A stretch of 64,000 nt of DNA from Knoellia sinensis KCTC 19936. GTDB taxonomy: Bacteria > Actinomycetota > Actinomycetes > Actinomycetales > Dermatophilaceae. The notes below the pieces were generated by a model. That model was not told the origin of the DNA, made no database searches, and saw nothing but the letters and a program-made list of their open reading frames with translations. This document shows, piece by piece, positions 16,441-58,322 of this stretch; the first letter of the stretch is position 1, and the number at the start of each line of letters is the position of its first letter. The translations under genes were made by a program, and so were the position numbers. The stretch lies in contig NZ_AVPJ01000007.1 in assembly GCF_000768705.1 (NCBI RefSeq), positions 124,001 through 188,000 on the forward strand, written 5' to 3'.

Positions 16441-16746
16441 ATGAACGACAGCATCGAGAACACGGAAGCGGACGGCATACAGGACAAAGAACCCGACCGT
16501 ATGCCGGGTGGTCCCGTTTCCGACAACGTGCGCGACGAAGTGCGCATCGACGTCGACGAGGAGCGCCTCGACGCATGGGAGGACGTGCGAGGCGACTACG
16601 CCGTCGACCCCGACGAGGACATGACCCGCCCCGCGCTCACCGAGGTCGAGGAGGACGAGGACGACGAGGAGGCCCTGCGCGAGGACGACGAGGAGGACGA
16701 CCTCGCCGAGGACGAGGACTCCGAGGACCGCGACGAGGAGGAGTGA
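16441..16746 (+). CDS. Highly acidic hypothetical protein
   Basis: 101 aa, ATG with GGGAG six bases ahead. About 45 percent of residues are Asp or Glu, ending in an almost unbroken acidic tail (EEDEDDEEALREDDEEDDLA). There is no membrane segment or Cys. The central part (DERLDAWEDVRGDYAVDPDE) is the most sequence-like and may be the conserved portion. Codon use (strong third-position GC) supports translation. One exact copy of the dispersed 13-mer GCGGACGGCATAC lies in its 5' part and forces a rare ATA codon. No family is recognised; it could be a DNA-mimic or metal-binding protein, but nothing proves that. Confidence 0.65.
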   Translation: MNDSIENTEADGIQDKEPDRMPGGPVSDNVRDEVRIDVDEERLDAWEDVRGDYAVDPDEDMTRPALTEVEEDEDDEEALREDDEEDDLAEDEDSEDRDEEE

Positions 16747-16857
16747 CCATTTCGCGAAGCCCCTGAGCCGAGCGACGCCCAAAACCCCACAGACGCCTCT
16801 CACGTGGTTGTTTGGAGGTATCCACGCAATCCAACGCACAGACGTGAGGAGCAGGCC

Positions 16858-17463
16858 ATGGGTATGGACGACATCAGGAACGCCGCTGACGAGGCTGCAG
16901 GCAAGGCCAAGGAAGGCTTCGGCAAGGCCACCGGCAACGAGTCACTCGAAGCCGAGGGCGCCGTGCAGGACGCCACGGCCGACGTCCGCCAGGGCGCCGA
17001 CTCGGTCCGCGACTCCTTCGAAGGCACCGAGGGTGGCTTCGGCGACAAGGTCGACGCGGCCCGCGGCGAAGCGGGCGAGCAGTTCGACACGGCCAGGGAC
17101 TCGGTCGGCAACGCTGCGGACTCGACCAGGGACTCCCTCGGCGAGAAGGTCGACAGCGCACGTGACTCGTTCGGCGACAACGCCGACGCGGGCACCGACT
17201 CCATGGGCGACAGGGTCGACGCCGGCACCGACTCCATGGGCGACAGGGTCGACTCGGCACGCGACTCCGCGGGCGACAGGCTCGACTCGGCACGCGACTC
17301 CATGTCCGAGAAGCTCGACGTCGAGGACACCGGCGAGCCGGGCCTCGGCGCACCGGGCGAGGGTCTGCGCAAGGCCGACGACGCCATCAGCGCAGCCGAG
17401 GACAAGATCGGCGACGCCGTGAGCGGACTCGGCGACAAGATCAAGGGCGTCTTCAACAAGTAG
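16858..17463 (+). CDS. CsbD-like protein with 11-residue LEA-type repeats
   Basis: 201 aa from MGMDDIRNAA, with GAGGAG upstream. Residues 5-40 (AADEAAGKAKEGFGKATGNE, then SLEAEG) look like the CsbD stress-protein motif. Residues about 92-157 are six tandem 11-mers of the form DSxGDRVDSAR, predicted to make an amphipathic helix like late-embryogenesis-abundant proteins. There is no signal peptide. Such proteins accumulate under desiccation, salt or general stress in related bacteria; that role is inferred. A strong terminator follows and the acidic gene lies upstream, so the two may be stress genes. Confidence 0.7.
   Translation: MGMDDIRNAADEAAGKAKEGFGKATGNESLEAEGAVQDATADVRQGADSVRDSFEGTEGGFGDKVDAARGEAGEQFDTARDSVGNAADSTRDSLGEKVDSARDSFGDNADAGTDSMGDRVDAGTDSMGDRVDSARDSAGDRLDSARDSMSEKLDVEDTGEPGLGAPGEGLRKADDAISAAEDKIGDAVSGLGDKIKGVFNK
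17131..17328 (+). repeat. 33-bp coding minisatellite (six units)
   Basis: Units begin at 17131, 17164, 17197, 17230, 17263 and 17296, each starting GACTC and encoding 11 residues. The third and fourth units are nearly identical at the DNA level (GACTCCATGGGCGACAGGGT), indicating recent duplication. Unit number could vary among strains. Confidence 0.8.
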
Positions 17464-17481
17464 CCCCGCTCCAGCGACAAC

Positions 17482-17516
17482 GACCGCGCGTGCCCGAGTG
17501 ATCGGGCCGCGCGGTC
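17482..17516 (+). terminator. Strong terminator hairpin after the CsbD-like gene
   Basis: GACCGCGCG and CGCGCGGTC pair for 9 bp; after a one-base bulge, GCCCGA and TCGGGC pair for 6 more, closing a GTGA tetraloop. The hairpin begins 19 nt past the stop codon and is followed by CGTCGTCTCTGT. It separates the CsbD-like gene from the DUF808 gene. Confidence 0.85.
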
Positions 17517-17586
17517 CGTCGTCTCTGTAGTCTGAGCACTCATCGACTCCACGTCTCCCCCGAGACATCGACCCGAAGGCGACCTG

Positions 17587-18624
17587 ATGGCTGGCGGACT
17601 CTTCGCTCTTCTCGACGACATCGCGGTGCTGGCCAAGGCCGCCGCAGCTTCTGTGGACGACGTCGCCGCGGCGGCCGGACGCGCGAGCGTCAAGGCGACC
17701 GGCGTCATCGTCGACGACACGGCGGTCACGCCGCGCTACGTGCAGGGGCTCTCCCCCGCGCGCGAGCTGCCGATCATCAAGAAGATCGCCATGGGCTCGC
17801 TGAAGAACAAGCTGCTCTTCATCCTCCCGGCGGCGCTCCTGCTCAGCCAGTTCCTCCCGCAGGCGCTCACGCCGCTGCTCATGATCGGCGGCACCTACCT
17901 CTGCTTCGAGGGTGTCGAGAAGATCTGGGAGAAGCTCAGCGGCCACGCCGAGGACGCAGCGGACAAGGCACACGACGCCGGGCTCGTCGCCGACGAGGAC
18001 ACGATCACGAGCGGCGCGATCCGCACTGACTTCATCCTGTCGGCCGAGATCATGGTCATCTCGCTCAACGAGGTCGCCGACGAGCCGTTCGTCACGCGCG
18101 CGGCGATCCTCGCGGTCGTCGCCTTCATGATCACCGCGCTCGTCTACGGCGTCGTCGCGCTCATCGTCAAGATGGACGACGCCGGCCTGCACCTCGCCGA
18201 GAACGGCCGCACCGACGGTGGCAAGGCCTTGGGACGCGGGCTCGTCGCCGCGATGCCCAAGCTCCTGACGGCTCTCTCGGTCATCGGCATCGCCGCCATG
18301 ATCTGGGTCGGCGGCCACATCATCCTCGTGGGTCTCGACGACCTGTCGCAGGAGTACGGCTGGTCGATCCTGCACCAGCCCTACGCCTGGGTCCACAGCG
18401 CCGAGGAGTGGGTGCACGGGGCGACCGGCGCCCTCGGCGGGGTCCTCGGCTGGGTCACCAACACCATCGGCTCGGCCATCCTCGGCCTCATCGTCGGCGC
18501 GATCGTCGTCGCGATCATGCACGTCATCCCGCGCAAGGGCGGGCACGGTGCGCACGAGGACGAGGGCCACGGCGTCGTTCCCGAGACCGGCGAGGTTGTC
18601 GACGTGCCCAAGAAGGACCACTGA
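17587..18624 (+). CDS. DUF808 (YedI-type) membrane protein
   Basis: 345 aa. The N-terminus MAGGLFALLDDIAVLAKAAA is the family hallmark, followed by DDVAAAAGRASVKATGVIVDDTAVTPRYV. At least six hydrophobic segments follow (LLFILPAALLLSQFLP, ITALVYGVVALIV, LLTALSVIGIAAMIWVGGHI, TIGSAILGLIVGAIVVAIMH). The C-terminus is His/Glu-rich (KGGHGAHEDEGHGVVPE), a possible metal-binding tail. DUF808 proteins are inner-membrane proteins of unknown function. The YbaK-like gene starts 6 nt downstream. Confidence 0.88.
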   Translation: MAGGLFALLDDIAVLAKAAAASVDDVAAAAGRASVKATGVIVDDTAVTPRYVQGLSPARELPIIKKIAMGSLKNKLLFILPAALLLSQFLPQALTPLLMIGGTYLCFEGVEKIWEKLSGHAEDAADKAHDAGLVADEDTITSGAIRTDFILSAEIMVISLNEVADEPFVTRAAILAVVAFMITALVYGVVALIVKMDDAGLHLAENGRTDGGKALGRGLVAAMPKLLTALSVIGIAAMIWVGGHIILVGLDDLSQEYGWSILHQPYAWVHSAEEWVHGATGALGGVLGWVTNTIGSAILGLIVGAIVVAIMHVIPRKGGHGAHEDEGHGVVPETGEVVDVPKKDH

Positions 18625-18629
18625 CCTGT

Positions 18630-19178
18630 ATGCCGTCCGCTCGCGGATCGCTGTCCTGGTCACCTGCCGCTGACCACCCGGAGCTCGTCGCGCCTCCCGT
18701 GGCTGCTGCCCTGGCTGCCAGCGAGGTTGCGGGCATCGCGGCAGCGGAGGTGGCGCCCATCGACGCCACGCTCGCCGACACGGCGGCGTTCTGTGCGGCA
18801 TACGACGTCGCTCTGGAGGCGAGTGCCAACTGTGTGGTGGTGGCCGGGAAGCGAGCGGGCGAGACGACCTACGCCGCCGTCATGGTGCTCGCCACCGACC
18901 GCGCCGACATCAACGGGGTCGTGCGCAAGCACCTCGGCGTCCGCAAGATCTCGTTCGCGCCGCACGACGACGCGGTGTCGCTGACCGGAATGGAGTTCGG
19001 CGGGATCACGCCCATCGGACTCCCTGCCGACTGGCGGGTCCTCGTGGACGCCCGCGTCGTGGCCGCCGGGCCGGTCGTCATCGGCGGCGGGGTGCGCGGC
19101 AGCAAACTGCTCGTCGACGGGGCTGCGCTCGCCGTGCTGCCCACCGCCGAGATCCTGGAGTTGGCCCAGCCGGGCTGA
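18630..19178 (+). CDS. YbaK/EbsC-type aminoacyl-tRNA deacylase
   Basis: 182 aa from MPSARGSLSW; the open frame continues upstream through the DUF808 gene but the ATG six nt after its stop is the sensible start, with AGAAGGA 12 nt ahead. The YbaK/ProX fold is visible in ANCVVVAGKRAGETTYAAVM, VRKHLGVRKISFA, SLTGMEFGGITPIGLP and VVIGGGVRGSKLLVDG. These enzymes hydrolyse mischarged tRNAs such as Cys-tRNA(Pro) or Ala-tRNA(Pro). The dispersed 13-mer GTATGCCGTCCGC spans the start codon, so the first four codons derive from it. Confidence 0.88.
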   Translation: MPSARGSLSWSPAADHPELVAPPVAAALAASEVAGIAAAEVAPIDATLADTAAFCAAYDVALEASANCVVVAGKRAGETTYAAVMVLATDRADINGVVRKHLGVRKISFAPHDDAVSLTGMEFGGITPIGLPADWRVLVDARVVAAGPVVIGGGVRGSKLLVDGAALAVLPTAEILELAQPG

Positions 19179-19295
19179 GTGGCTTGGACCAGAGGCACCC
19201 GACCGCAGGACGATCAGCTCGGTCCGGATCTGGGCGCCACACGGCGTGTCGCGTCCACGTGCTGGAGGGCTGATCGTCCGCCGGCAGGTCGGCGC

Positions 19296-20483
19296 TCAGG
19301 TGGTGCGGTCGCGCAGTTCGGTGACGTGCCGGGAGACCGCCGGGTCGAGCCCGAGGCCGAGCGCCAGGTAGGTCGCCACGTAGTCCCCCAACGAGATCAA
19401 CGACGCGAGCCGCTCGATCGGGTGCCCCGCGAGCGCCTCGACCTCCCAGACCTTGACCCCGGCGTCGCGGGCCGACTCGGCGACAGCCTCGGCGAGCCGA
19501 GAGGCCTCGCGCGCAGCCTCCGCCACGCCAGGATCCCGGGTCTCCACGGGTGCGTCCCGCAGCATGAGGAGCCCGAGCTGCGGTGACGGTGGCCCGTCGA
19601 GGAACGGGTCAGCAAAGATGTCGCGCTCCCCCACCCCGCCCTGCCCGCCGGACCCCGATCCGCTGAACGGCCCGTCGAAGCAGGCGACCACCTGCGCGGC
19701 CGCATCGGGAAGGGCACCGTGAGTGGCCGGCATACGGGCGGTGCGGGCCAGCATCGCCGCAGCGCGACCGGCAGCAACGCCGGTCAACGCACCGTCACCC
19801 AGCACGACGGGCACGGTCTCGGCGAGGCCGACGGCGAGGATCTTGGCGGGGTTGACGAACGACTCGGACGAGGGGCGGCACTCCTCGGCGCGCTCGTCGA
19901 GCCGGTCGGCGACGCGTTCGAGCACCGCCTCGGAGCAGTCGATGAGGCCGAGACCGTCGGCCGCCAACAGGACCGGCGTGAGCATCGACCACAGCGCGGC
20001 TCGTGACGTCGGCACGTCGACGGCGATGTCCACGTGGACTCCGCGGCCTCGAGCGCTCACGTCGGCCAACGGCGAGTCCGGCGCCCCCACCGTCAACAGG
20101 GACGCGCCCCGACGGGCCGCCTCCGCCGCCAGCGCCAGTGGACCTGCGGCACGCCCCGACTGGGACACGGCGATCACGAGGTCGAGGGGTCCGATCCACC
20201 CCGGCAGCGGCGCCTCGCGCCGGGTCGTCAGGGGAACCGGCGAGCCCGGCTCGGCCAGGACATCGAGCACGTCGCAGACGACCGCCGTGCCGCCGAGGGA
20301 GGCGACGAGGACCGAGCGCGGCCGGTCTCCCCCGGCGACCTTGTCGATCCCGGCCTCGCGCGCCGCGAGGAGTGCCCGGCGGACCTGTGCGCCGGAGGTC
20401 GCGAGGGCACGGAGCGTGCCGCGACTGTCGAGCGACTCCAGCGAGTCGGCGGAGTCGAGGAAGGCCTCGTCAAGGTGCGGCAT
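19296..20483 (-). CDS. SIS-domain phosphosugar isomerase-like protein
   Basis: 395 aa. Two sugar-isomerase (SIS) lobes are present: residues 50-170 (SVLVASLGGTAVVCDVLDVL, VIAVSQSGRAAGPLALAAEA) and 190-380. It resembles bifunctional phosphoglucose/phosphomannose isomerases and the actinobacterial protein that sits beside ManB (Rv3256c in M. tuberculosis). It probably supplies or regulates mannose-6-phosphate for GDP-mannose and envelope mannans, but the catalytic residues of true isomerases are not obvious, so activity is uncertain. It ends the minus-strand manB-Trm112-SIS operon; about 117 nt without a gene separate it from the convergent YbaK gene. Confidence 0.82.
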   Translation of the reverse strand: MPHLDEAFLDSADSLESLDSRGTLRALATSGAQVRRALLAAREAGIDKVAGGDRPRSVLVASLGGTAVVCDVLDVLAEPGSPVPLTTRREAPLPGWIGPLDLVIAVSQSGRAAGPLALAAEAARRGASLLTVGAPDSPLADVSARGRGVHVDIAVDVPTSRAALWSMLTPVLLAADGLGLIDCSEAVLERVADRLDERAEECRPSSESFVNPAKILAVGLAETVPVVLGDGALTGVAAGRAAAMLARTARMPATHGALPDAAAQVVACFDGPFSGSGSGGQGGVGERDIFADPFLDGPPSPQLGLLMLRDAPVETRDPGVAEAAREASRLAEAVAESARDAGVKVWEVEALAGHPIERLASLISLGDYVATYLALGLGLDPAVSRHVTELRDRTT

Positions 20484-20507
20484 GGTGGTGCGGCGCCGGG
20501 CGGCCGA

Positions 20508-20693
20508 TCAGGCCGGCTTGCGCCCCTCGTCGACGAGCAGCACCGGGACGCCGTCGTCGATCCGATAGATCAGGCCGCAGGCCTCGGAGGTGCAGGCGAG
20601 CTCGGGACCGGACTCCCCTGTCACGTCCTTGAGCTCGGCTCGGCAGTTGGGGCAGCGCAGGATCTCGCGCAGCCAGGGCTCCATCGTCACCAT
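20508..20693 (-). CDS. Trm112 family zinc-ribbon protein
   Basis: 61 aa. It has the four-Cys pattern CPNC...CTSEACG, with REILRCPNCRAELK and the C-terminal YRIDDGVPVLLVDEGRKP typical of Trm112/YcaR small proteins. In eukaryotes and archaea Trm112 activates methyltransferases; in bacteria the role is less clear. An internal Met at codon 4 may be the real start. It begins 1 nt after the manB stop codon and 24 nt before the SIS gene, so it is translated within the mannose operon. Confidence 0.9.
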   Translation of the reverse strand: MVTMEPWLREILRCPNCRAELKDVTGESGPELACTSEACGLIYRIDDGVPVLLVDEGRKPA

Positions 20694-20694
20694 C

Positions 20695-22128
20695 TCAGTC
20701 TCCTCTCACGATGCTCAACACATCGTCGCGTATCGCGGCCATCGTGTCCGCATCGGCTGCCTCGACATTGAGCCGGAGCAGGGGTTCGGTATTGGAGGCG
20801 CGCAGGTTGAGCCACCACATCGGGTCGCCCTCGCCGTCGCCGTGGTGGGTGAGGGTGAGGCCGTCGAGCTCGTCGACCTCGACGTCCTTGTCCTTCGCCC
20901 ATTCTCTGACCTTTTCCGTGCTCGCGGCAGCGTCGGCGACGGTCGAGTTGATCTCGCCAGAGGCCTCGTATGCCGTGAAGTCGCCCATGACGTCCGACAG
21001 CGGTGCGCTCTGCTCACCGAGGGCGGCGAGGACGTGCATGGCGGCGAGCATGCCGGTGTCGGCGAACCAGAAGTCGCGGAAGTAGTAGTGCGCGCTGTGC
21101 TCACCGCCGAAGACGGCGTTGGAGCGCGCCATCTCGCCCTTGATGAACGAGTGGCCGACGCGGGTGCGGACGGCCTTGGCGCCGAGGTCGGAGATGACCT
21201 CGGGGACCTGGGCGGAGGTGATGACGTTGTGGACGATCGACACGTCCGCGGCCGGGGTGCCGGCAGCCACCTCGCGGGCGACCTCACGGGTGGCGATGAG
21301 GGCCGTGATCGCACTGGGGCTCACCGGCTCGCCGCGCTCGTCGACGACGAAGCAGCGGTCGGCATCGCCGTCGAAGGCGAGACCGAGGTCGGCTCCGTGC
21401 TTCACGACGGCGGCCTGGAGGTCGCGGAGATTCTCGGGCTCGAGGGGGTTCGCCTCGTGGTTGGGGAACGTCCCGTCGAGCTCGAAATAGAGCGGCTCGA
21501 TCGTGAGCGGGAGTGCGGGGAGCCCTGCTTCGGTGCCGAGCACTGCTGGGACGGTGAAGCCGCCCATCCCGTTGCCCGCGTCGACGACGACCTTGAGCGG
21601 GCGGATCCCGGACAGGTCGACCAGGCCCCGCAGGAATCCCGCGTAGTCGGCGAGCACGTCACGCTGCGTTGTCGCACCCTCGGCCTCGTGGCGCTGCTCG
21701 GCGGTGCCGTCGAGGAGTTCCTGGGCCAGGTCGCGGACGTCGGCGAGGCCGGAGTCCTGACCGACGGGTCGCGCCCCGGGGCGGCACAGCTTGATGCCGT
21801 TGTAGGCCGCCGGGTTGTGGCTCGCGGTGAACATCGCGCCGGCGAGGTCGAGGTGGCCGCTCGCGAAATAGAGGCCGTCGGTGCTGGCGAGGCCGATGTG
21901 GGTGACGTCGATGCCCCGGCTCGCGACACCCCGTCCGAAGGCTCGGGACAGCTCGGGCGAGGACGCGCGCATGTCGTGACCGATGACGCAGCCGGTCCCC
22001 TTCTCGCGGGTGATGACCACCTCGGCGAACGCCGCGCCGAGCGCCCACGCGACGTCGACGTCGAGTTGCTCGGGGACGAGTCCGCGCACGTCATAGGCCT
22101 TGACGAAGTCGGAGAGGGTGTGAGGCAC
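20695..22128 (-). CDS. manB: Phosphomannomutase/phosphoglucomutase
   Basis: 477 aa from a GTG start (then PHTLSDFVKAYDVRGLVP); a far longer in-frame extension across the opposite-strand UvrA-like gene is spurious. The phosphoserine loop GAMFTASHNPAAYNGIKL has Ser at about residue 103, the metal loop is FDGDADRCFVVDE, the sugar loop FGGEHSAHYYFRD, and the phosphate-binding loop RASNTEPLLRLNVE. It interconverts mannose-1- and -6-phosphate for GDP-mannose synthesis. The start lies 7 nt after TAGGGT, a -10 hexamer, so its mRNA is probably leaderless. Trm112 and SIS genes follow directly. Confidence 0.95.
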   Translation of the reverse strand: MPHTLSDFVKAYDVRGLVPEQLDVDVAWALGAAFAEVVITREKGTGCVIGHDMRASSPELSRAFGRGVASRGIDVTHIGLASTDGLYFASGHLDLAGAMFTASHNPAAYNGIKLCRPGARPVGQDSGLADVRDLAQELLDGTAEQRHEAEGATTQRDVLADYAGFLRGLVDLSGIRPLKVVVDAGNGMGGFTVPAVLGTEAGLPALPLTIEPLYFELDGTFPNHEANPLEPENLRDLQAAVVKHGADLGLAFDGDADRCFVVDERGEPVSPSAITALIATREVAREVAAGTPAADVSIVHNVITSAQVPEVISDLGAKAVRTRVGHSFIKGEMARSNAVFGGEHSAHYYFRDFWFADTGMLAAMHVLAALGEQSAPLSDVMGDFTAYEASGEINSTVADAAASTEKVREWAKDKDVEVDELDGLTLTHHGDGEGDPMWWLNLRASNTEPLLRLNVEAADADTMAAIRDDVLSIVRGD

Positions 22129-22135
22129 GCAGTGG

Positions 22136-22242: not shown

Positions 22243-22260
22243 ACCACCGATGGAGAGCCG

Positions 22261-32805: not shown

Positions 32806-32827
32806 GAGGCGGGCGGACGGCATACGG
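32806..32827 (-). repeat. Solo repeat tail with the 13-mer
   Basis: The 22 bp are identical to the outer part of the repeat at 50855-50876, including GCGGACGGCATAC at 32813-32825, but the CCAATTGG core is absent. It lies in the 118-nt gap between cofE and the TOPRIM gene, which holds no other recognisable element. Confidence 0.7.
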
Positions 32828-47342: not shown

Positions 47343-48501
47343 CGTCTCTTGACCTCACGACGAGGTCCGAGAGCAGGGCGAGCGAGGCGATCATCATGCC
47401 GCTGACGATGAGCAGCACCGTCGACGCGGGGAAGTAGAACGGGTGCCGCACCATGTCGACGATGCCCTTGATGAAGCCGATGACGATCATCCACAGGGCC
47501 GGGGGCATGAGGACCTTGAGCGGGTCGAAGTACATGACCATCCGCAGCACCTGGAGGATGTAGCGGTAGGCATCGCGCACGAAGTGGAACTTCGAGACGC
47601 CGGCGCGCTTGGCGTAGGACGTCTCGACGTACTTGATGTCGTGCTGGTTGCTGAGGAACGCGATCGTGATCGTCGTGACGCACGAGAAGCCCGCCGGCAG
47701 CAGCCGCAGGTAGGGCAGCGACACCTCACGCCGGAACGCCCGCAGACCGCTGTTGAGGTCCGGGATCTTCGTCTTGGTGAGCCACTCGGCGACCTTGCGG
47801 ATGAACCACTTCGCGGGGACGCGCGCCCACTTGTGCGTGCCCTCCTCGGTGGTGCGGGCGCCGACGACCTGGTCGTAACTCGCGTCGTCCCGCAGGATGC
47901 GGACGAGGTCGGGGATCCGCTCGTTCTCGTAGGTCATGTCGGCGTCGGTCCACACGACGATCTCGCCGTGGGCCTGTTGGGTGCCGATGCGCCGAGCCGT
48001 GCCCGAGCCGCCGTTGCGGCGGAACGGCATGATCCGCAGGTTCGCGAAGTCCCGCGCCGCCTGCTGGAGGACCTCGAGGGTGTTGTCCGTGGACGCGTCG
48101 TCGATGCACAGCAACTCGTAGGAGAACTCGCTCGCGTTCATCACCGTGGTGATGCGGTCGATCTCCTGGAGAACGTGTGCGCCCTCGTTGTAGCAGGGCA
48201 GGACGATCGTGACGTAGGGTCGCGGACTGCCGTCCTCGAGCGTCTTCGGTCGCGGGTCCCGTTCCGTGGGGGTCTGGAACGTCGGGTCGTATGCCGTCCG
48301 CCCGCCGACCGCGCCCAGCTCACCCGGATCGTCGCTCCCACCCGCGAGCTCACCGCTGCGCACCGCGATGCGCTCGGTCGGTGCGGAGGCTGGCGCGACG
48401 GCAGGAGGCACGGCAGCAGGCGCGGCGGGAGGCGCGGCAGGCGGCGAAAGGGGTGGGCCTGCGGGGATCGCGATGGCCTCGGTCTCGGGGTGCTCGTTCA
48501 T
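47335..48501 (-). CDS. GT2 dolichol-phosphate-mannosyltransferase-like protein
   Basis: 388 aa. The first 85 residues are Pro/Ala-rich and unordered. Residues 90-310 are GT2 (YVTIVLPCYNEGAHVLQEID, LCIDDASTDNTLEVL, IVVWTDADMTYENE with the DAD motif, IPDLNSGLRAFRRE). Two C-terminal helices (residues 325-345 and 355-380) anchor it. It resembles polyprenyl-phosphate sugar transferases that supply sugars to the outer face. One copy of the 13-mer lies at 48289-48301 within the codons for GRTAYDP. Confidence 0.9.
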   Translation of the reverse strand: MNEHPETEAIAIPAGPPLSPPAAPPAAPAAVPPAVAPASAPTERIAVRSGELAGGSDDPGELGAVGGRTAYDPTFQTPTERDPRPKTLEDGSPRPYVTIVLPCYNEGAHVLQEIDRITTVMNASEFSYELLCIDDASTDNTLEVLQQAARDFANLRIMPFRRNGGSGTARRIGTQQAHGEIVVWTDADMTYENERIPDLVRILRDDASYDQVVGARTTEEGTHKWARVPAKWFIRKVAEWLTKTKIPDLNSGLRAFRREVSLPYLRLLPAGFSCVTTITIAFLSNQHDIKYVETSYAKRAGVSKFHFVRDAYRYILQVLRMVMYFDPLKVLMPPALWMIVIGFIKGIVDMVRHPFYFPASTVLLIVSGMMIASLALLSDLVVRSRDGV

Positions 48502-48512: not shown

Positions 48513-49763
48513 CTACCCGGCAGTGACCCGCTCACCGGCGGTCGGCAGGACGCGTGGCAGGCGGACGGCATACAGGGCTCCGAAGAGGGCGACGACCCCG
48601 AGCACGGCCCAGATCGTGTAGGTGCCGTGCTCGAGGAGCCACGTGTAGGCGACCGGCGTGATCGTGCCGCCGACACCCCAGACGAGTTGGACGAGGCCCA
48701 GGTAGCGACCGCGGAGGTGGTCCGGCGCCGCCTCGGCAGCCGTGGCGCTGAAGACGGGACCACCTGCCAGCTCGCCGCTCGTGTAGATCACGGCACCCAC
48801 GAGCATCGCCGCCACTGCGACCCACACCGGCAGCAGCCCGGCGAGGACGAAGATCGCGTAGCCGACGACGAAGAAGACCTGGGCGAGGGCCATCATCCGA
48901 GCGCGCACCCGGCCGGTCATCCAGCGCACCATGAGGCCCTGCCCCAACCCCACGAGGATGGTGTTGAGCGTGAAGATCGCCCCGACGAGCCAGCCCGGAA
49001 GGTCCAGGGTCTCCGCGGCATACACGGGCAGGGCGAAGTTGAGCACCATGATGCCGACGACGAACGTCAACTGGCCGAGGACGAGCTGGAGGTACGCGCG
49101 GTCGCGCAGGACGATGGCCCAGCCGCCGGTCGGTCGCGCCTCGTCGGCGGCGCCGGCTGGGACCGAGCGGTGGTCCGGCACGTCGAGCAGAAGCACGAAC
49201 GCGAGCACGAACGTGGCCGCGTTGGCGATGACGACCGCCTTGAACGCCGCCTCGGTGTCGATCTGGAGGGCAATGCCGGCGAGGACGCCGCCCACGGCAT
49301 ACCCGAGGTTGCGCAGGGCCTGCAGGAAGCCGAACCACACTTCCCGCTCCCCCGGCTTCGTGATGGCGGTGACCACGTTGCCGAAGGACCCCCAGAACGC
49401 CTGCCGCCCCAGGTTGAGCAGGACGGTCGCGAGGGCGACCGGCCAGAGCGCCTCGACCCAGAGGTAGGCAAGCATCCCGGCGGCCTGGACGATGTTGCCG
49501 ATGAGCATCATCCGGCGGCCGCCGAAGCGGTCCACCATCGAACCGATGACGAACGCCGCCGGCATCGTCAGGAGGGCAGAGAGCGAGAGCGCCGAACCGA
49601 TCTGGACGAGCGTGAGGTCGGTGACCTTGAGGAAGTAGAGCAGCGTGATCGGCATGAACAGGCCGCTGCCGATCGTGTCCGCGACGATCGCCGAGACGAA
49701 CCTGCGGTGCTCCCCCACCCGTGGAAATCCCAGTCGCTGCAGCACTCGCGCATCCTGCCCCAT
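48513..49763 (-). CDS. MFS transporter
   Basis: 416 aa from MGQDARVLQR; an upstream in-frame start would translate the tandem repeat and is less likely. About 12 helices are seen; MVDRFGGRRMMLIGNIVQAA is the loop 2-3 signature of the major facilitator superfamily. Substrate unknown. It could export a glycan precursor or a small molecule. It is the first gene of the minus-strand operon: 11 nt separate it from the GT2 gene. Confidence 0.87.
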   Translation of the reverse strand: MGQDARVLQRLGFPRVGEHRRFVSAIVADTIGSGLFMPITLLYFLKVTDLTLVQIGSALSLSALLTMPAAFVIGSMVDRFGGRRMMLIGNIVQAAGMLAYLWVEALWPVALATVLLNLGRQAFWGSFGNVVTAITKPGEREVWFGFLQALRNLGYAVGGVLAGIALQIDTEAAFKAVVIANAATFVLAFVLLLDVPDHRSVPAGAADEARPTGGWAIVLRDRAYLQLVLGQLTFVVGIMVLNFALPVYAAETLDLPGWLVGAIFTLNTILVGLGQGLMVRWMTGRVRARMMALAQVFFVVGYAIFVLAGLLPVWVAVAAMLVGAVIYTSGELAGGPVFSATAAEAAPDHLRGRYLGLVQLVWGVGGTITPVAYTWLLEHGTYTIWAVLGVVALFGALYAVRLPRVLPTAGERVTAG

Positions 49764-49806
49764 GCGGCCGACCCCCGACGACCCAGTTTCCGTCCGCCCA
49801 CCCTCG

Positions 49807-50123
49807 CGTCCCGAACTCACCGAATTCCTCCGTTCGGGACAACCCGCCCGTATGCCATCCGCCCACCTCCCGTCCCGAACTCACCCAATTGGACGGCTCC
49901 GCACACCCGGCCCGCATGCCGTCCGCCCACCTCCCGTCCCGAACTCACCCAATTCGACGGTTCCGCACAGATCCGCCCGTATGCCGTCCGCCCATTCCCG
50001 TCCCGAACTCACCGAATTCCTCGGTTCGACACAGATCCGCCCCGTATGCCGTCCGCCCACTCCCGTCCCGAACTCACCCAATTGGACGGTTCCGCACACC
50101 CGACCCGTATGCCGTCCGCTCAC
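49807..50123 (+). repeat. Five-unit tandem array, 64-bp period
   Basis: Units start at 49807, 49871, 49935, 49999 and 50064, each opening CGTCCCGAACTCACC. Units 2, 3 and 5 continue CAATTGGACGG (unit 3 CAATTCGACGG); units 1 and 4 have GAATTCCTCNG at the same place. The second half reads CCCGTATGCCGTCCGCCCAC with small changes. The array fills the gap between the divergent MFS and TRIC genes, immediately ahead of the TRIC promoter. Its invariant and variable parts differ from CRISPR, since there is no separate unique spacer. Confidence 0.95.
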
Positions 50124-50138
50124 CCGTCTGGGGCGCAC

Positions 50139-50786: not shown

Positions 50787-50803
50787 CGCGAAACTCGCCG
50801 AAC

Positions 50804-50925
50804 GGCATACGGCATGGATGTGCGTAACCGTCCAATTGGGTGAGTTCGGTACGAGAGGCGGGCGGACGGCATACGGGATGCGTGTGCGGAACCGTCCAAT
50901 TGGGTGAGTTCGGTACGGGACGGAC
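50804..50925 (-). repeat. Two inverted-orientation repeats between TRIC and the RimK-like gene
   Basis: Read on the minus strand, two units each give GTACCGAACTCACCCAATTG then GACGGTT and a GTATGCCG tail; the cores are 64 bp apart, the same period as the array. The first has one exact 13-mer (50862-50874). They fill the gap between convergent stop codons (50786 and 50926). Confidence 0.9.
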
Positions 50926-52141: not shown

Positions 52142-52621
52142 GTGCACGGAGCAACCCATCCAACCATCCACGTCGGGTGGCGTGAGTGGGTGCGTATGCC
52201 GTCCGCGAACCTTCCGTGGATCAAGGCGAAGGTCGACACGGGCGCGAGATCGTCAGCGGTGCATGCGTTCGACCTCGAGAGGTTCGAGCAGGACGGTGCC
52301 CCCTGGGTGCGCTTCTCGATCCACCCCTGGCAGGCGAGCGATGAGGACGCGGTCACGCTCGAGCGTCCGGTCGTCGACGAGCGCGCTGTCCGATCATCCT
52401 CCGGGCACGCCGAACACCGCCTCGTCGTCGAACTCGAGCTGGTCCTGGCCCGACGCAGGCTCACGACCGAGGTGACGCTGAGCAGGCGCGACGAGATGGG
52501 ATTCCGGATGCTCATCGGTCGCGAGACCCTCCGCCACGGGTTCGTCGTCGACCCGTCCGTCTCCTATCTCGGGCCGAGGCCCAAGGTGCACCTGCGCCGC
52601 CGCAACCGGGGCCGCGGGTGA
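52142..52621 (+). CDS. RimB/RloA-type aspartyl-protease-like protein (DUF785)
   Basis: 159 aa, GTG with GAGAGGA seven bases upstream. The signature VGWREWV...IKAKVDTGARSSAVHA (with DTGA like retropepsins) and GFRMLIGRETLRHGFVVDPS near the C-terminus place it in the ATP-dependent-zinc-protease/RimB family. RimB trims the poly-glutamate tails made by RimK in Pseudomonas. The pairing here with a RimK-like ligase on one side and a desuccinylase-like gene on the other supports a tagging or trimming function. A 13-mer copy encodes its RMPSA. Confidence 0.85.
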   Translation: MHGATHPTIHVGWREWVRMPSANLPWIKAKVDTGARSSAVHAFDLERFEQDGAPWVRFSIHPWQASDEDAVTLERPVVDERAVRSSSGHAEHRLVVELELVLARRRLTTEVTLSRRDEMGFRMLIGRETLRHGFVVDPSVSYLGPRPKVHLRRRNRGRG

Positions 52622-53712
52622 GCACCTCACGCGGCACGACCCGAACCAGCCGGACCAGCCGGGCATCCCGTCCGTCGTTCGCCATCGGGTCGGTCAAGGT
52701 GCGTCCCGGTCACACGCGCGAGATCGGCCTGCCGATCACCAAGCTCGTCACCGGCGCCGAGGTGAGCCTGCCGGTGCGCGTCTTCCATGGCCGTGAGCAC
52801 GGGCCAACAGTCTGGATCAACGCCGCGATCCACGGCGACGAGGTCGTCGGGGTGGAGGTCATCCGGCGGGTGCTTGCGACGCTGTCGGCCAAGACGCTGC
52901 GCGGCACCCTCATCGCGGTCCCGATCGTCAACGTGCACGGCTTCATGGCTGGTGACCGCTACCTCCCGGACCGGCGTGACCTCAACCGGTCCTTTCCGGG
53001 CTCGCACCGCGGCTCACTCGCCGGTCGCATCGCCCACCTCTTCATGAGTGAGGTCGTCGACAAGTGCGAAGTCGGGATCGACCTGCACACCGGGTCGGAC
53101 CGGCGGACCAACCTTCCCCAGGTGCGCGCCGACCTCGACGACCCGCGCACTCGCGAGCTCGCGGAGGCGTTCGGCGCCCCGATCATGCTCCACGCCAAGG
53201 TCCGTGACGGTTCATTGCGTGCCGCAGCCCGGGAGCGCGGCGCCACCGTGCTGCTCGTCGAGTCCGGCGAGGCGATGCGCTTCGACGCGTGGGCCATCGA
53301 GGCCGGCGTCGAGGGTGTCCGGCGCGTCCTGGCCGCCCTGGGCATGATCGATCCCACCGACTCGCCGCACCCGGCGCACGCCTCTGCTCCCACTCCCGCG
53401 CTGGTGAGCCGGCGCAGCGGTTGGGTCCGCTCCGGACGCAGCGGCATCGTGCACCTCGACGTCACCCTGGGTCAGCGCGTCGAGGTGGGCACCCGCCTCG
53501 GAGGGCTGAGCGACTCGTTCGGCAAGACCCTGCAACTGGTCAAGGCCGACCGCGCCGGCGTCATCATCGGGCGCACGACGGCACCCCTGGTCAACCGGGG
53601 CGACGCCCTCGTCCACATCGCCGAGATCGAGGGCGCCGAACCTCCGGGCACACCCGACCACCCCGACGCGGCCGAGGGGTTTGACGCGCTCGACGAGATC
53701 CCGGTGCTCTGA
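52618..53712 (+). CDS. AstE/aspartoacylase-family zinc hydrolase with biotinyl-like tail
   Basis: 364 aa, GTG overlapping the RimB-like stop by 4 nt. The M14-like zinc motif is INAAIHGDEVVGVEVI, with GIDLHTGSDRR and the catalytic Glu region VLLVESGEAMRFD. The last 90 residues (WVRSGRSGIVHLDVTLGQRV, LVNRGDALVHIAEIE) resemble a biotinyl/lipoyl-like barrel common in this family. It hydrolyses an N-acyl amino acid or isopeptide; the specific substrate is unknown. Adjacency suggests it processes products of the RimK-like ligase. Confidence 0.87.
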   Translation: MSTSRGTTRTSRTSRASRPSFAIGSVKVRPGHTREIGLPITKLVTGAEVSLPVRVFHGREHGPTVWINAAIHGDEVVGVEVIRRVLATLSAKTLRGTLIAVPIVNVHGFMAGDRYLPDRRDLNRSFPGSHRGSLAGRIAHLFMSEVVDKCEVGIDLHTGSDRRTNLPQVRADLDDPRTRELAEAFGAPIMLHAKVRDGSLRAAARERGATVLLVESGEAMRFDAWAIEAGVEGVRRVLAALGMIDPTDSPHPAHASAPTPALVSRRSGWVRSGRSGIVHLDVTLGQRVEVGTRLGGLSDSFGKTLQLVKADRAGVIIGRTTAPLVNRGDALVHIAEIEGAEPPGTPDHPDAAEGFDALDEIPVL

Positions 53713-53752
53713 GCCTCTGCGCTCCGCGAGCTCTGAGCCCTACGATCACAGG

Positions 53753-54511
53753 ATGGCCGAGCGCGTCCGCTTCCCGAGTTCCTCCGGCGAGATGCTCGCC
53801 GGACTGATCGATCTGCCCGAGGGCGAGTTCCGCGGGTGGGGGCTGTTCTCCCACGGGTTCACCCTGGGCAAGGACTCCCCCGCAGCCGCCAGGATCTGCA
53901 AGCAACTCGCCGCCGAGGGCGTCGGGATGCTCCGCTTCGACAACCTCGGACTCGGCGACTCCGAGGGTGAGTGGGGCAACGGCTCGTTCTCGCACAAGGT
54001 CGCGGACACCGTCGAGGCCGCCCGGTTCATGGCTGCGAGCGGCCGTCCGATCGAGATTCTCGTCGGCCACTCCTTCGGTGGCGCCGCCGTGCTCGCCGCA
54101 GCGGCCGACATCCCGGAGGCGAGAGCAGTCGTCACCGTCGGTGCACCCTTCGACCCCACGCACGTCGAGCACCAGTACGACGCCGTCGTCGAGCGGGTGC
54201 TCGCCGAGGGCGAGGCACCGGTGACGCTGGGTGGCAAGGCCCTGGTGCTGCGCAAGGCCTTCGTCGAGGACGTGCGCCGCGCGGACCTGCGCGAGCGCAT
54301 CACCCACCTGAACCGCCCCCTGCTCGTCGTGCACTCGCCGACCGACGACACCGTCGCGATCAAGAACGCGAGTGACATCTTCTTCACCGCCCGTCACCCC
54401 CGCAACTTCATCGCGCTCGAGGGCTCGGACCACTTCCTCACCACCAAGGGTCAGGCCAAGAGGGCCGCCCGCATCATCAGCGCCTGGGCCGACCAGTACC
54501 TCGTGGACTGA
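53753..54511 (+). CDS. Alpha/beta hydrolase (OsmC-associated type)
   Basis: 252 aa; TACGAT lies 6 nt before the ATG, so it is probably leaderless. RFPSSSGEMLAGLIDLPEGE and GLFSHGFTLGKDSPAAARIC are at the N-terminus; LVGHSFGGAAVLAAAADIPE has the nucleophile elbow Ser. SPTDDTVAIKNASDIF and EGSDHFLTTKG give the acid and His. Members of this subfamily sometimes pair with OsmC peroxidases; no such gene is adjacent. Confidence 0.9.
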   Translation: MAERVRFPSSSGEMLAGLIDLPEGEFRGWGLFSHGFTLGKDSPAAARICKQLAAEGVGMLRFDNLGLGDSEGEWGNGSFSHKVADTVEAARFMAASGRPIEILVGHSFGGAAVLAAAADIPEARAVVTVGAPFDPTHVEHQYDAVVERVLAEGEAPVTLGGKALVLRKAFVEDVRRADLRERITHLNRPLLVVHSPTDDTVAIKNASDIFFTARHPRNFIALEGSDHFLTTKGQAKRAARIISAWADQYLVD

Positions 54512-54543
54512 GTTCTCCGGCCGCCGCGTCAGACCGGACCCCG

Positions 54544-54560
54544 GTATGCCGTCCGCCCAC
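54544..54560 (+). repeat. Solo repeat tail with the 13-mer
   Basis: GTATGCCGTCCGCCCAC at this point matches the tail of the tandem units, without the CCAATTGG core. It lies 6 nt before the first possible start of the inositol-phosphatase gene. Confidence 0.65.
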
Positions 54561-54565
54561 CTCGT

Positions 54566-55372
54566 GTGGAAGCGTGTGTGTCCGTGGACACACAGGCAGT
54601 GCTCGACCTCATGAAGCAGGTGGCCGCCGAGGTCATCACCCCGCGATTCCGGTCGCTCGCCGACGGTGAGGTGATCGAGAAGAACCCCGGCGACCTCGTC
54701 ACGGTGGCCGACCGCGAAGCCGAGGTGCTCATCACCAAGGCGCTGAACGCGGCCTACCCCCACGCCGTCGTCCTGGGCGAGGAGGCACACTCGGCCGACT
54801 CGAGCATCCTCGAGCGCTACGCCGCGGCCGAGCACGCCTTCACCGTCGACCCGGTGGACGGCACCAAGAACTTCGTCCACGGCTCCCCCGACCACGCCGT
54901 GATGATCGCGGAGACCAAGGATGGTGAGACAACTCGCGCGTGGATCTGGCAGCCGGAGCACGAGGTCGCCTGGGTCGCCGAGCGAGGGTCCGGAGTGGAA
55001 CGCAACGGCGAACGCATGAGCCGCTCGCCCCTCGGTCAGGACGACAACCCCCGAGGCGCCACCTCGATCTGGTCCCTGCGCGGGCACGCCCTCGCGGATC
55101 TGCCTGCGCTGCAACCCAGTTGGGTCTGCTGTGGCGTCGACTACCCCAAGCTCATCGAGGGCGAGGTCGACTTCATCCTCTACAGCCGGTCCAATGCCTG
55201 GGACCACGCGCCGGGTTCGCTCATGGTCGCGGAGGCGGGCGGTCACGTGGGTCACCTCGACGGCCTCGACTACGGCCCACGGTCGACCACGCCGGGCCTC
55301 ATCGTGGCCGCGGACCGGACGACCTATGCCGCCGTCGCCCGTCGCATGCCGCAGGACGTCACCTCCCGCTGA
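54566..55372 (+). CDS. Inositol monophosphatase family protein
   Basis: 268 aa. Motifs are complete for the lithium-sensitive phosphatase family: DLVTVADREAEVLI, VLGEEAH, the metal site TVDPVDGTKNFVHG and the C-terminal WDHAPGSLMVAEAGG. Likely substrates are inositol-1-phosphate, histidinol-phosphate or PAP. GTG starts at codons 1, 5 and 7 are all possible and there is no clear ribosome site; the family alignment suggests the true N-terminus is one of the later two. It converges on the polytopic membrane protein gene with two repeats between them. Confidence 0.88.
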   Translation: MEACVSVDTQAVLDLMKQVAAEVITPRFRSLADGEVIEKNPGDLVTVADREAEVLITKALNAAYPHAVVLGEEAHSADSSILERYAAAEHAFTVDPVDGTKNFVHGSPDHAVMIAETKDGETTRAWIWQPEHEVAWVAERGSGVERNGERMSRSPLGQDDNPRGATSIWSLRGHALADLPALQPSWVCCGVDYPKLIEGEVDFILYSRSNAWDHAPGSLMVAEAGGHVGHLDGLDYGPRSTTPGLIVAADRTTYAAVARRMPQDVTSR

Positions 55373-55378
55373 GCCGGC

Positions 55379-55465
55379 GTCCCGAACCGTCCAATTGGGT
55401 GAGTTCGGTACACCACCTCCCGCTGGGCTCGCGTCCCGAACCGTCCAATTGGGTGAGTTCGGTAC
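55379..55465 (-). repeat. Two palindromic CCAATTGG repeats between convergent genes
   Basis: Two copies of CCGAACCGTCCAATTGGGTG followed by AGTTCGGTAC, starting at 55382 and 55436 (54-bp spacing, shorter than elsewhere because the 13-mer tail is missing). In these copies the outer arms CCGAAC and GTTCGG are perfectly complementary, enclosing the self-complementary CCAATTGG. They lie between stop codons at 55372 and 55494. Confidence 0.9.
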
Positions 55466-55493
55466 GGTCACCTGGCGCTGATGCTCGCCGTCC

Positions 55494-57584
55494 TCAGCCC
55501 CCAGCGACGCCGGTCCATATCTCGAGGGACAGGGGCACGAGCGCGTCCGGGCGCCGCTCCAGCAACCGATCGTCCTCAGCCACGAAGACATCGCTGACCT
55601 GGCGAACGTCGGTGGCCCCCAACGCATCCAGCTCCTCAGTGCCCTCGGCTGCGAGCAGGACCAGACGCCCACCGCCCGCCGCGACGGCTTCGTCGATCGT
55701 CGCGACGGTCGAGGCTAGCCGTGGCGGGTTCTGACGCAGGGTCCTCGTCGTGGACAGGGCGGGGTGACCGCACTGGCCGCGGACGACCTGGGGCCACTCG
55801 TTGGCGGCGCGCGAGTCGACCGACAGGACGACGTCGCCGTCCTCGAGAGAGGCGCAGACACGCTCCACCACTGCGAGTTCTCCCAGCTCGACCCGCTCGG
55901 AGCGGTGGGGCCACGTGGCCATCACGGTGGGGACGAACGTCGCCCCGACCAGGGCCACACCGGCGGCGACCGCGACGGCAACGGGAGCGCGCCGCGAGAG
56001 GTGGCGGACGGCATACGCGGCAGCCATGACGCAGAGGACGATGACGAACGGCAGGACGATGACGAGACGACGTTCGGCCCACGGGTGGTCGGGCGTGATG
56101 CCGGGACGCCACAGCGTGAAGACGGTCGAGCCGGCCGCGACGAGCAGCGGCCCCGTCCACGCCGGAAGAACCTCCCCTTCGGTCCAGCGCGACGCCGCCG
56201 TGCGGATCGCCCACGCGAGGGCGACCAGCGCGATGACGAGCGCCGGAATGCCGACCCACCACGACAGCCAGGCCACGGTCTGCTCGGCATAGGTCCGTCC
56301 GCCGTCGACCTCGAGCCCCTGACGCAGCTGCAGTCCGGCGACGACCCGCGCACCGGGATCATCGGGCGATTGGCGCACCGTCTGCCAGAGCGGGCGGCTC
56401 GCGAGGAAGAGTCCCACGGCGACAACAGCCAACCCCAGCGTGTCGGGAAGACGACGCGAAACCCCCACTGGCAGAACACCTCCGCGACGCTGCCACCACA
56501 TCAACCCGGCGGTCAGCAGCCCCATGAGCACCCCGACCCCGAGCAGCGGCACGAGGCTGGCGGCGATCGTGCCGAGGTACTGGCCCGACAACCACGCGGC
56601 CGCCAGTCCGGCGAGCACCGTCGAGATTCCGGCGCCGACGAGGGTGGCGCGCGGCCAGCGCTGGCCCTGCGCCAGGGCGAGCGCCGCCACCGGGATGAGG
56701 AGGATCGTCTCGCGCAGCCCGTCGATGCGGACGAACGCCGTGCCACCGATGAGGACGCCCGCGAGCAGGGCAGCGCGACCGACTTCCCCCCGAGCACCCT
56801 GCCGCGCTGCGACCGTCAGGGCCATGAGTCCGGCACCGAGGGTGACCAGGGCGAGGGGTTCCGAGTACGTCGACCGAGCGGTGTGGAGCACCGGGAACAG
56901 GAGCGCCACACCCGCTGCGGCGAGGGGCGACCATCGGGGTGCGCCGACCCGAGCAGTGAGAAGGCCGATCCCGAGGATGCCGATCGCCGACATGAGAGCG
57001 GGCAGGAGCATCGCCCCTGCCGGACCCCCGGCCCAGACGCCGAGCGACCAGATCGCGCCGGGGCCGATGACGAACTGTGGCTGGAGGGAGGGGTCGTCGT
57101 CGGTGCCGACCTGATAGAAGGCCGGGCTGGCCAGAGTGATCCCCTCGAGCGCGAGCACCTCGGCGCCACCCACCTCCGACGTCTCGACGGGCACGACGCG
57201 ACGGTGCGTCTCGGCCATGGAGATCGCCGACTGGAGATAGCTCGCGGAGTCCCGCCGGGGCAACACCTGCTCCGAATGCGTTGCGGCGGTCCAGATCCCG
57301 GCGCCGATGCTCACGGCGGCGAGGAGCGCTGCGGTCCAGACGGGCAACGACCGAGCCGGTATGCCGTGTGCCCACCACCCGCTCGCCCCTGCTGCGACCA
57401 GGGCCAGCGGGAACACGAGCCACGGGAACCACGCGCCGAAGCCGGCCAGCAGAACGGCCAGGAGAGACATGACCACGACCCAGGTGGCCGCGCCCAGGAC
57501 GAACGTCTGGAGCCACTGGCCGGCACCGCGCTCAAGCCTCGTCGCAGGGAGGTCGTCGTGGACGGTCGACACCGAGCGGCTCAT
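55494..57584 (-). CDS. Polytopic membrane protein, possible GT-C glycosyltransferase
   Basis: 696 aa from MSRSVSTVHD, with TAGCGT eight bases before the ATG. About 13 membrane helices between residues 28 and 560 are followed by a soluble C-terminus of about 120 residues (ERVCASLEDGDVVLSVDSRA). Residues 100-140 (VLPRRDSASYLQSAISMAET) form a loop after the first helices that contains acidic residues, as in GT-C enzymes. No family is recognised firmly. It is divergent from the TIGR03089 gene; both promoters lie in 36 bp. Confidence 0.72.
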   Translation of the reverse strand: MSRSVSTVHDDLPATRLERGAGQWLQTFVLGAATWVVVMSLLAVLLAGFGAWFPWLVFPLALVAAGASGWWAHGIPARSLPVWTAALLAAVSIGAGIWTAATHSEQVLPRRDSASYLQSAISMAETHRRVVPVETSEVGGAEVLALEGITLASPAFYQVGTDDDPSLQPQFVIGPGAIWSLGVWAGGPAGAMLLPALMSAIGILGIGLLTARVGAPRWSPLAAAGVALLFPVLHTARSTYSEPLALVTLGAGLMALTVAARQGARGEVGRAALLAGVLIGGTAFVRIDGLRETILLIPVAALALAQGQRWPRATLVGAGISTVLAGLAAAWLSGQYLGTIAASLVPLLGVGVLMGLLTAGLMWWQRRGGVLPVGVSRRLPDTLGLAVVAVGLFLASRPLWQTVRQSPDDPGARVVAGLQLRQGLEVDGGRTYAEQTVAWLSWWVGIPALVIALVALAWAIRTAASRWTEGEVLPAWTGPLLVAAGSTVFTLWRPGITPDHPWAERRLVIVLPFVIVLCVMAAAYAVRHLSRRAPVAVAVAAGVALVGATFVPTVMATWPHRSERVELGELAVVERVCASLEDGDVVLSVDSRAANEWPQVVRGQCGHPALSTTRTLRQNPPRLASTVATIDEAVAAGGGRLVLLAAEGTEELDALGATDVRQVSDVFVAEDDRLLERRPDALVPLSLEIWTGVAGG

Positions 57585-57592
57585 GGGCGCCC

Positions 57593-57614
57593 ACGCTAGC
57601 CCGGTCTCTAGGGT
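57593..57614. promoter_or_regulatory. Back-to-back -10 elements of two leaderless genes
   Basis: TAGCGT on the minus strand (57593-57598) is 8 nt from the membrane-protein ATG, and TAGGGT on the plus strand (57609-57614) is 6 nt from the TIGR03089 GTG. Only 36 bp separate the two start codons, so the -35 regions must overlap the opposite gene. Confidence 0.6.
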
Positions 57615-57620
57615 GGACCC

Positions 57621-58322
57621 GTGACCAGACCCGCCGATGTCCTGCAGCAGATGCTCCGTTCCGACTCCGCGAAGCCGCGGATCACGACCTACGACGACAC
57701 CGACGGGCCGACTCGCGGCGAGCGCATCGAGTTGTCCGCCCGGGTCCTCGGCAACTGGGTGAGCAAGGCCGCCAACGCGCTCCAGGACGAGTTCGACATC
57801 GCCCCCGGGTCGGTCGTGCACCTCGACCTGCCTCCGCACTGGCGCACCGCCTACTGGGCACTCGCGACCTGGTCAGTGGGTGGCACCGTCAGCCTCGACG
57901 ACGAGGCCGGCGACCTGCTCGTGACGACCGACGCGGATGCAGCGGCCGCCGCTGACGGTCCTGCCGTCCTCGTCACCCTCGCCGGGCTCGCCCGCGCCGC
58001 CACCGTCCCCGTCCCGCCCGGCGTCATGGACGAGGCCAAGGAGCTCAGCACCCACGGCGACCAGTTCGCCGCGTGGGAGGAGCCGGCCGACGACGACACC
58101 GCACTGATCACGGAAGGTGAGCGGACGGCATACGCGGATCTTGTTGTGCCACAGGAGAAGTCAGGCGAGCGCCGACACCTCACCACGACGAGTACGGCCG
58201 ACTTCCTCACCACCTGCCTCACCCTCTGGGCGGCCGATGGATCCGTCGTGCTCAGTCGCGGCGAGGCGCCGGCGGACGTCCTTGCGGAGCGATCACGCGT
58301 CGAGGGCGCCAACGCTCCCTGA
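57621..58322 (+). CDS. TIGR03089 family protein
   Basis: 233 aa, GTG start. The N-terminal part TYDDTDGPTRGERIELSARV and NWVSKAANALQDEFDIAPGS resembles the front end of AMP-dependent synthetases, as TIGR03089 does, without the rest of the enzyme. ATP-binding motifs are absent. Function unknown. It converges with the peptidoglycan-binding protein gene, with 2 nt between the stop codons. One 13-mer copy lies inside at 58121-58133. Confidence 0.88.
   Translation: MTRPADVLQQMLRSDSAKPRITTYDDTDGPTRGERIELSARVLGNWVSKAANALQDEFDIAPGSVVHLDLPPHWRTAYWALATWSVGGTVSLDDEAGDLLVTTDADAAAAADGPAVLVTLAGLARAATVPVPPGVMDEAKELSTHGDQFAAWEEPADDDTALITEGERTAYADLVVPQEKSGERRHLTTTSTADFLTTCLTLWAADGSVVLSRGEAPADVLAERSRVEGANAP

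Follow-up and report, generated by a model that had tools for sequence, protein, structure and literature searches.

The window analysed here, a 64,000-nucleotide stretch of the Knoellia sinensis genome (3.99 Mb, 61 contigs), carries a 13-mer that recurs on both strands, inside and outside genes. What kind of force would scatter such a word through a bacterial chromosome and keep it there? The reading that we favour, with a probability of roughly 0.7, is that the first eight letters of this word, GTATGCCG, together with a 3′ tail would constitute an uptake sequence in Knoellia and in much of the family to which it belongs, similar to the DUS of Neisseriaceae and kept by biased transformation. 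The claim derives from comparisons of genome sequences, and the competing explanations are weighed below alongside the evidence that bears on them.

The 13-mer in the window

A sequence-only reading of the window had reported 13 exact copies of the 13-mer, seven on the plus and six on the minus strand, and all of them are present. They are listed here with the repeats in which some of them lie, and with one close variant:

14797..14809, minus strand: one-mismatch 13-mer, intergenic, with a matching GGGCGGCAT arm after it in a hairpin-like layout
16468..16480, minus strand: 13-mer, genic, facing a GTATGCCG copy from 16499
18628..18640, plus strand: 13-mer, intergenic
32813..32825, minus strand: 13-mer, intergenic, tail CCGCCTCCCG
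48289..48301, plus strand: 13-mer, genic
48561..48573, minus strand: 13-mer, genic
49790..50124, plus strand: tandem array of 5.2 units of 64 bp, intergenic, with 13-mers at 49979, 50044 and 50107
49850 and 49914: one-mismatch 13-mers inside this array
50798..50874, minus strand: two-unit repeat related to the 64-bp array, intergenic, containing one 13-mer (50862) and one two-mismatch variant (50798)
52194..52206, plus strand: 13-mer, genic
54544..54556, plus strand: 13-mer, intergenic, tail CCACCTCG
56004..56016, minus strand: 13-mer, genic
58121..58133, minus strand: 13-mer, genic, tail TCACCTTCCG

The expectation per window had been put below 0.01, and base composition alone indeed gives about 0.005; 100 shuffled windows contain no exact 13-mer. 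If up to two mismatches are allowed, the window holds 25 copies, where 3.3 are expected. The 7-mer GTATGCC, previously estimated by eye at about 40 copies, occurs 42 times (21 on each strand) against 3.1 expected under a second-order Markov model. Since G comes next in 40 of these 42 copies and the remainder of the 13-mer is only preferred, the right unit is GTATGCCG plus a tail. Local repeats hold 4 of the 13 exact copies. Because three exact and two one-mismatch copies share a single array, and the copy at 50862 lies in a related repeat, the 13 copies are not all independent.

Another repeat, CCGAACTCACCCAATTGGACGGTT (with CCAATTGG as its palindromic centre), occurs together with the 13-mer in the window array. 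It has 13 sites in a 464-kb sample (the window plus 400 kb of contig C1), giving 26 strand-counts against 2.9 expected; 12 of the 13 sites are intergenic, and they form in part short tandem arrays. Its window sites are at 49885, 50078, 50832, 50896, 22225, 55391 and 55445, and those on contig C1 at 161675-161811 and 201917. At L035 (G027:C42:120456-120716) five 13-mers occur in a 62-bp tandem array, where they are accompanied by another partner sequence; the own frequent word of this host genus is GTATGCGG.

Genome-wide abundance and strand balance

The genome-wide count for which the sequence-only reading had called lies far above expectation, so the refuting outcome that it had named, a count close to expectation, did not arise. 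The K. sinensis genome contains 349 exact 13-mers (182 and 167 on the two strands) and no copy of the reversed control, and 2,485 copies of GTATGCCG (1,251 and 1,234), where the reversed word has 68. In the 464-kb sample GTATGCCG is the most over-represented 8-mer (274 copies vs. 12.5 expected, z 74, third-order Markov model). The 13-mer is thus the strong form of this 8-mer core with a degenerate tail: the core is followed by TCCGC and then by a further tail, YCRCCT, both preferred and neither required. Hundreds to thousands of copies above expectation, equal on both strands, are what is expected of uptake sequences of the DUS/USS type (USS being those of Pasteurellaceae).

The balance holds locally as well (chi2 8.0 for contig C1 divided into twenty 20-kb blocks). 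In G003, a single-contig Knoellia genome from which 20 spread blocks were taken, the strand of the core correlates neither with GC skew (r 0.11) nor with gene direction (r -0.13), and strand counts are 64/57 in positive-skew blocks and 65/62 in the others. Orientation bias along the replichore was therefore not found in these strand counts, in which GC skew served as the stand-in for the replichore. An 8-mer that is the top over-represented word and lies mostly in genes could in principle be a Chi- or KOPS-like polar site, used in recombination repair or chromosome segregation. We consider this very improbable: the strands are equal genome-wide and in 20-kb blocks, the relation to GC skew in G003 is negligible, and neither long tails nor hairpin pairs (see below) are expected of such a site. 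The earlier argument from strand balance against a polar motif, made on 13 copies, is borne out.

Position in genes, reading frame and codon usage

Genes were called with our own simple codon-usage gene finder and not taken from annotation. In the 464-kb sample 204 of 274 copies of GTATGCCG are genic and 70 intergenic, a three-fold enrichment between genes given that intergenic DNA makes up 8.6% of the total. The intergenic share by tail match, from 0 to 5 of 5 letters, is 0/22, 11/65, 9/55, 17/58, 9/29 and 24/45. Among other genomes the intergenic copies are 12 of 21 in G023, 17 of 54 in G191, 11 of 56 in G169, 13 of 65 in Terrabacter and 39 of 245 in G003. Enrichment between genes is not general, as G142 (1/27 core copies) and G011 (3/35) are at about background. 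Sense and antisense copies showed no difference in where along the gene they lie (p 0.18).

The genic copies had been described as falling in different reading frames; by our gene finder they occupy the frames unevenly. One frame dominates in each orientation (in the 464-kb sample, 90 of 115 cores read in sense and 68 of 89 in antisense), and the dominant frames read Tyr-Ala or Ala-Tyr. The companion claim, that the copies force rare codons and that the force acts on DNA rather than protein, is upheld. In K. sinensis TAT makes up 90 of the 108 Tyr codons in motif context vs. 501 of 2,377 (21%) overall, and GCA 68 of 104 Ala codons vs. 10.4% overall. The same excess is seen in G003 (TAT 89/98, GCA 66/96) and Terrabacter (12/18 and 12/19), and is missing from four motif-poor genomes (1/12 and 0/12) and from Nocardioides (0/33 and 0/23). 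Because the frames of the motif run against codon preference, the force acts on DNA. The ATA codon imposed by the copy at 16468 is present, at 16477-16479 and not at 16476 as first given.

General codon bias was tested as a cause of the word and rejected, as the codons in motif context oppose the preference of the genome and their excess is absent from motif-poor genomes. Separately, the Nocardioides loci and some motif-poor genomes (G059, G122) show a milder excess of the 8-mers GTACGCCG and GTACGACG, mostly within genes. Intergenic copies in Nocardioides number 28 out of 178 and 16 out of 140, where 12% of the DNA is intergenic; this excess may be codon context only.

Inverted pairs between genes

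Inward-facing pairs of the core at most 60 bp apart number ten in the 464-kb sample. All ten are intergenic and start 18-30 nt past a stop codon, and their predicted folding energies range from -11.6 to -35.8 kcal/mol. In nine of them the stem is longer than the 8-bp core, and the inner arms vary from pair to pair. The other close pairs in the sample comprise five outward and two direct ones. The preference for inward pairs is not general, G003 having seven inward (three genic) and seven outward (one genic). By structure and position, the K. sinensis pairs are terminator-like hairpins, as expected of the DUS/USS type; DUS pairs of Neisseria are described as terminators in passages of PMC2397512 and PMC13020248.

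Could an intrinsic terminator, or another signal at the RNA level, be the primary function? The placement of the hairpins 18-30 nt past stops would suit it, yet the copies are mostly single, genic and in either orientation, which leaves this explanation with a very small probability. If the word is an uptake sequence, its use in terminators would be a secondary co-option.

Conservation and turnover among Knoellia species

We compared the window with homologous regions of six other Knoellia genomes, which are 78-81% identical to it. Counting alignable DNA only (12.6-42.3 kb per genome), and with one window site able to count in several of the six comparisons, the core is kept at 115 of 161 aligned sites (71%). 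Control words of the same composition are kept at 4,408 of 15,746 (28%) in the same comparisons. Five alignments to Terrabacter and Terracoccus, each spanning 1.7 kb and together retaining the core at 1 of 10 sites, were excluded from these totals. Conservation in place between related species is a further property expected of DUS/USS-type sequences. Single sites illustrate both outcomes: both K. locipacati and K. subterranea have a copy that shares the left flank of the one at 52194, and K. flava has the core with one tail letter altered, whereas the core at 48561 is not kept in G005 or K. subterranea (G006). The loci of these named relatives represent one homologous region and are not independent.

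The alignments also reveal 81 differences in the presence or absence of the core, of which 63 are ungapped, 14 partly gapped and 4 gaps of the whole motif. Among the ungapped differences, 29 involve one mismatch, 16 two and 18 at least three. As most differences are ungapped, copies in alignable DNA mostly appear and vanish in place rather than through an inserted element. Replacement by recombination, for which Treangen and co-workers argue in the case of DUS (passages of PMC2397512), would suit the many sites with at least three mismatches.

These counts bear on the proposal that the copies are remnants of a mobile repeat, which had been listed as an alternative to uptake. A REP- or MITE-type element spread by a transposase would account for the tandem array and the two-unit repeat of the window and for the array in G027, and inverted pairs are REP-like. 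Against it, a Y1/RAYT transposase (PF01797) is found in none of nine Knoellia and in 4 of 186 family genomes, 204 of the 274 copies are genic, and only 4 of the 81 differences are whole-motif gaps, in a tally confined to alignable DNA. We regard this origin as highly improbable.

Distribution and dialects in the family

Among 186 genomes of the presumed family (f1), 106 contain at least 400 copies of the core and 80 fewer. All nine Knoellia genomes are rich (1,971-3,277 copies). Some motif-rich genomes are also high in the reversed word, for example G062 (1,660 core vs. 578 reversed). Otherwise rich genera have poor members, with 37 copies in G065, 19 in G118 and 50 in G141. Of 296 genomes sampled across the class, the 290 from outside the family all have 386 copies or fewer, the maximum being in G236 (7.5 Mb, reversed word 176).

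The word itself varies between lineages, genera differing in the tail or by a single letter of the core. The tail in G023, CTGGGCTCG, differs strongly from that of Knoellia, reading GCTGG or GCTGA in 22 of 24 copies, and at the named Intrasporangium locus 3 of 3 copies start the tail as in G023. Weaker tail differences are seen in G191 (CGGGG) and in G169 and G094 (CG). In genus g20 the core is changed to GTATGCGG, with 511-1,204 copies in 4 of 4 genomes (87-107 reversed) and 153-322 copies of GTATGCCG, and G011 and G081 carry the core variant GTATG[CGA]CG. Lineage dialects with a shared core are likewise expected of the DUS/USS type.

Two further explanations concern proteins that recognize the word. 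A protein that binds DNA at thousands of places, whether to organise the chromosome or otherwise, would fit copies that are evenly spread and conserved, and some such sites tolerate either strand. On its own it leaves unexplained the hairpin pairs at gene ends, the shifts of dialect between genera and the near-absence of the word from G065, G118 and G141; moreover, the word is non-palindromic and unrelated to GC skew. We judge it unlikely. A recognition site of a DNA methylase, or of restriction-type discrimination between self and non-self, could also be strand-balanced, as a mark of self at the sequence level. Degenerate tails and drifting dialects are not expected of it, and it seems hardly probable.

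Competence and pilus genes

If the word is an uptake sequence, genes for DNA uptake should accompany it. The K. sinensis genome has adjacent genes with ComEA (SLBB + HHH_3) and ComEC (Competence) domains, and the window contains the following:

298..5814, minus strand: Tad/Flp pilus operon, encoding T2SSE, a ParA-type ATPase (would be TadZ), RcpC/CpaB, Tad, TadE and two Flp pilins

Two T2SSF genes, TadB/TadC by position, lie just upstream of the window. Competence machinery is therefore present, as expected for the DUS/USS type, though ComEC does not discriminate: 180 of the 186 genomes in the family have it, without separating motif-rich from motif-poor ones. RcpC/CpaB (108 of 186 genomes) does not follow the word either: in genus g2 all 12 of the motif-poor genomes have it, and it was not found in the motif-rich Knoellia G002 and G003. 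The operon, which had been offered as a hint of uptake, is thus real, but its link to the word is weak; it is a candidate uptake pilus that RcpC co-occurrence does not support. A link to type IV pili was sought through PilM_2, which is found in 7 of 186 family genomes and in no Knoellia. The sequence-specific receptor of Neisseria is a minor pilin of the ComP type, and the rarity of PilM_2 and its absence from Knoellia make such a receptor on a type IV pilus unlikely.

Two other genes were noted at one locus. Another ParA-type ATPase gene, standing apart and with a CpaE/TadZ-like domain, lies beside a small gene without a Pfam match (L265:1-1838), and a phosphoribosyltransferase-domain gene (ComFC-like, a guess) beside a ribosome-hibernation factor (L265:12118-12486).

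A possible mechanism and its relation to known systems

Under the uptake reading, the competence machinery (ComEA/ComEC with a pilus of the Tad/Flp type, the set described for Micrococcus luteus) would have a surface receptor that binds the word, and fragments bearing the word would be taken up and recombined more often. Such a bias would fix the word wherever it arises at tolerable cost and would then keep it. Drift in receptor specificity would slowly change the dialect of a whole genome, and the word would decay once competence or specificity is lost. An uptake sequence would be expected to be scarce in DNA of recent foreign origin. A lower-GC cluster with glycosyltransferase and asparagine synthase genes (L173, C1:220001-240000), one island picked afterwards, contains 2 cores against a mean of 11.7 per 20 kb.

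The traits visible in the sequence mostly match an uptake sequence, dialects included. The proposal of a DUS-like, non-polar word, as first made, is well supported in its anatomy and evolution (copy number, strand balance, hairpins, conservation and dialects); the Tad hint is its weak part.

The papers cited here describe sequence-specific uptake of DNA in Neisseriaceae and Pasteurellaceae. The DUS of Neisseriaceae number roughly 940 to 5,900 per genome (sections of Frye 2013, PMC3630211; Treangen 2008, PMC2397512). As described there, they share with the Knoellia word lineage dialects with a common core, word-free relatives and conservation in place, and, in the latter source, inverted pairs, which are terminators there and terminator-like by structure here. 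The Knoellia word differs from them in being an unrelated word with a longer degenerate tail, in an actinobacterial host in which no PilM-type pilus was found. The USS of Pasteurellaceae, according to passages of PMC2346458 and PMC13020248, likewise have a many-copy core (a 9-mer), a frame preference by orientation and an association with terminators, but word, host phylum and machinery are different. They are also biased to gene termini (van Passel 2008, PMC2346458, in part), whereas no clear bias is seen in the Knoellia histogram.

A likeness in machinery is to M. luteus, an actinobacterium with comEA, comEC and Tad/Flp genes whose transformation depends on Flp/Tad (portions of PMC4322843, PMC8467076 and PMC6370729). 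Transformation is described there with comEA, comEC and Flp pili (PMC6370729), and an RcpC/CpaB-CpaE pair is named among the competence-linked loci (PMC8467076). The term 'uptake sequence' has no occurrence in the main text of PMC4322843 or PMC8467076. Among the matches listed in open-licence PubMed Central, no paper describes an actinobacterial uptake sequence by its title and the start of its abstract, and none of those containing GTATGCCG deals with uptake by its title.

If the uptake reading is true, this would be a further, unrelated case with closely graded dialects, indicating that uptake words evolve repeatedly, and it would suggest that the receptor sits on a machine of the Tad/Flp type. 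The word would mark those of these soil actinobacteria that are competent now or were recently, and strains that resist engineering could be transformed by a simple rule, the addition of the word to the DNA.

A possible second word in another family

In f19, a presumed second family that from its named Agromyces loci is probably Microbacteriaceae, the word GGATGCCG exceeds its reversed form more than ten-fold in 8 of 13 genomes and reaches 4,831 copies in a genome of 4.2 Mb. In two others (G403 and G339) it is not outstanding. Outside f19 the highest ratio to the reversed word that we noticed is about six-fold. Copies in the Agromyces loci are modestly enriched between genes (49 of 319 intergenic, where 9.2% of the DNA is). 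In other Microbacteriaceae-type loci, which are one homologous region throughout, 3 of 113 are intergenic and the strands are uneven (70/43). GGATGCCG is a possible second uptake word.

A wider reading is that words of the form G[T/G]ATGN[C/G]G would serve uptake in at least two actinobacterial families, would be read by Tad/Flp rather than type IV pili, and would have arisen independently of those of Neisseria and Haemophilus. Its dialects would be GTATGCCG in Knoellia and relatives, GTATGCGG in g20, GTATG[CGA]CG in G011 and G081, and GGATGCCG in f19 and G033. We give this tentative reading slightly less than an even chance, because the other Microbacteriaceae-type loci, with few intergenic copies and uneven strands, run contrary to it.

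GGATGCCG was seen in the Agromyces loci (L066-L128) and, at thousands of copies per genome, in G308, G319, G368 and other members of f19. Six inward GGATGCCG pairs lie between genes in the Agromyces loci.
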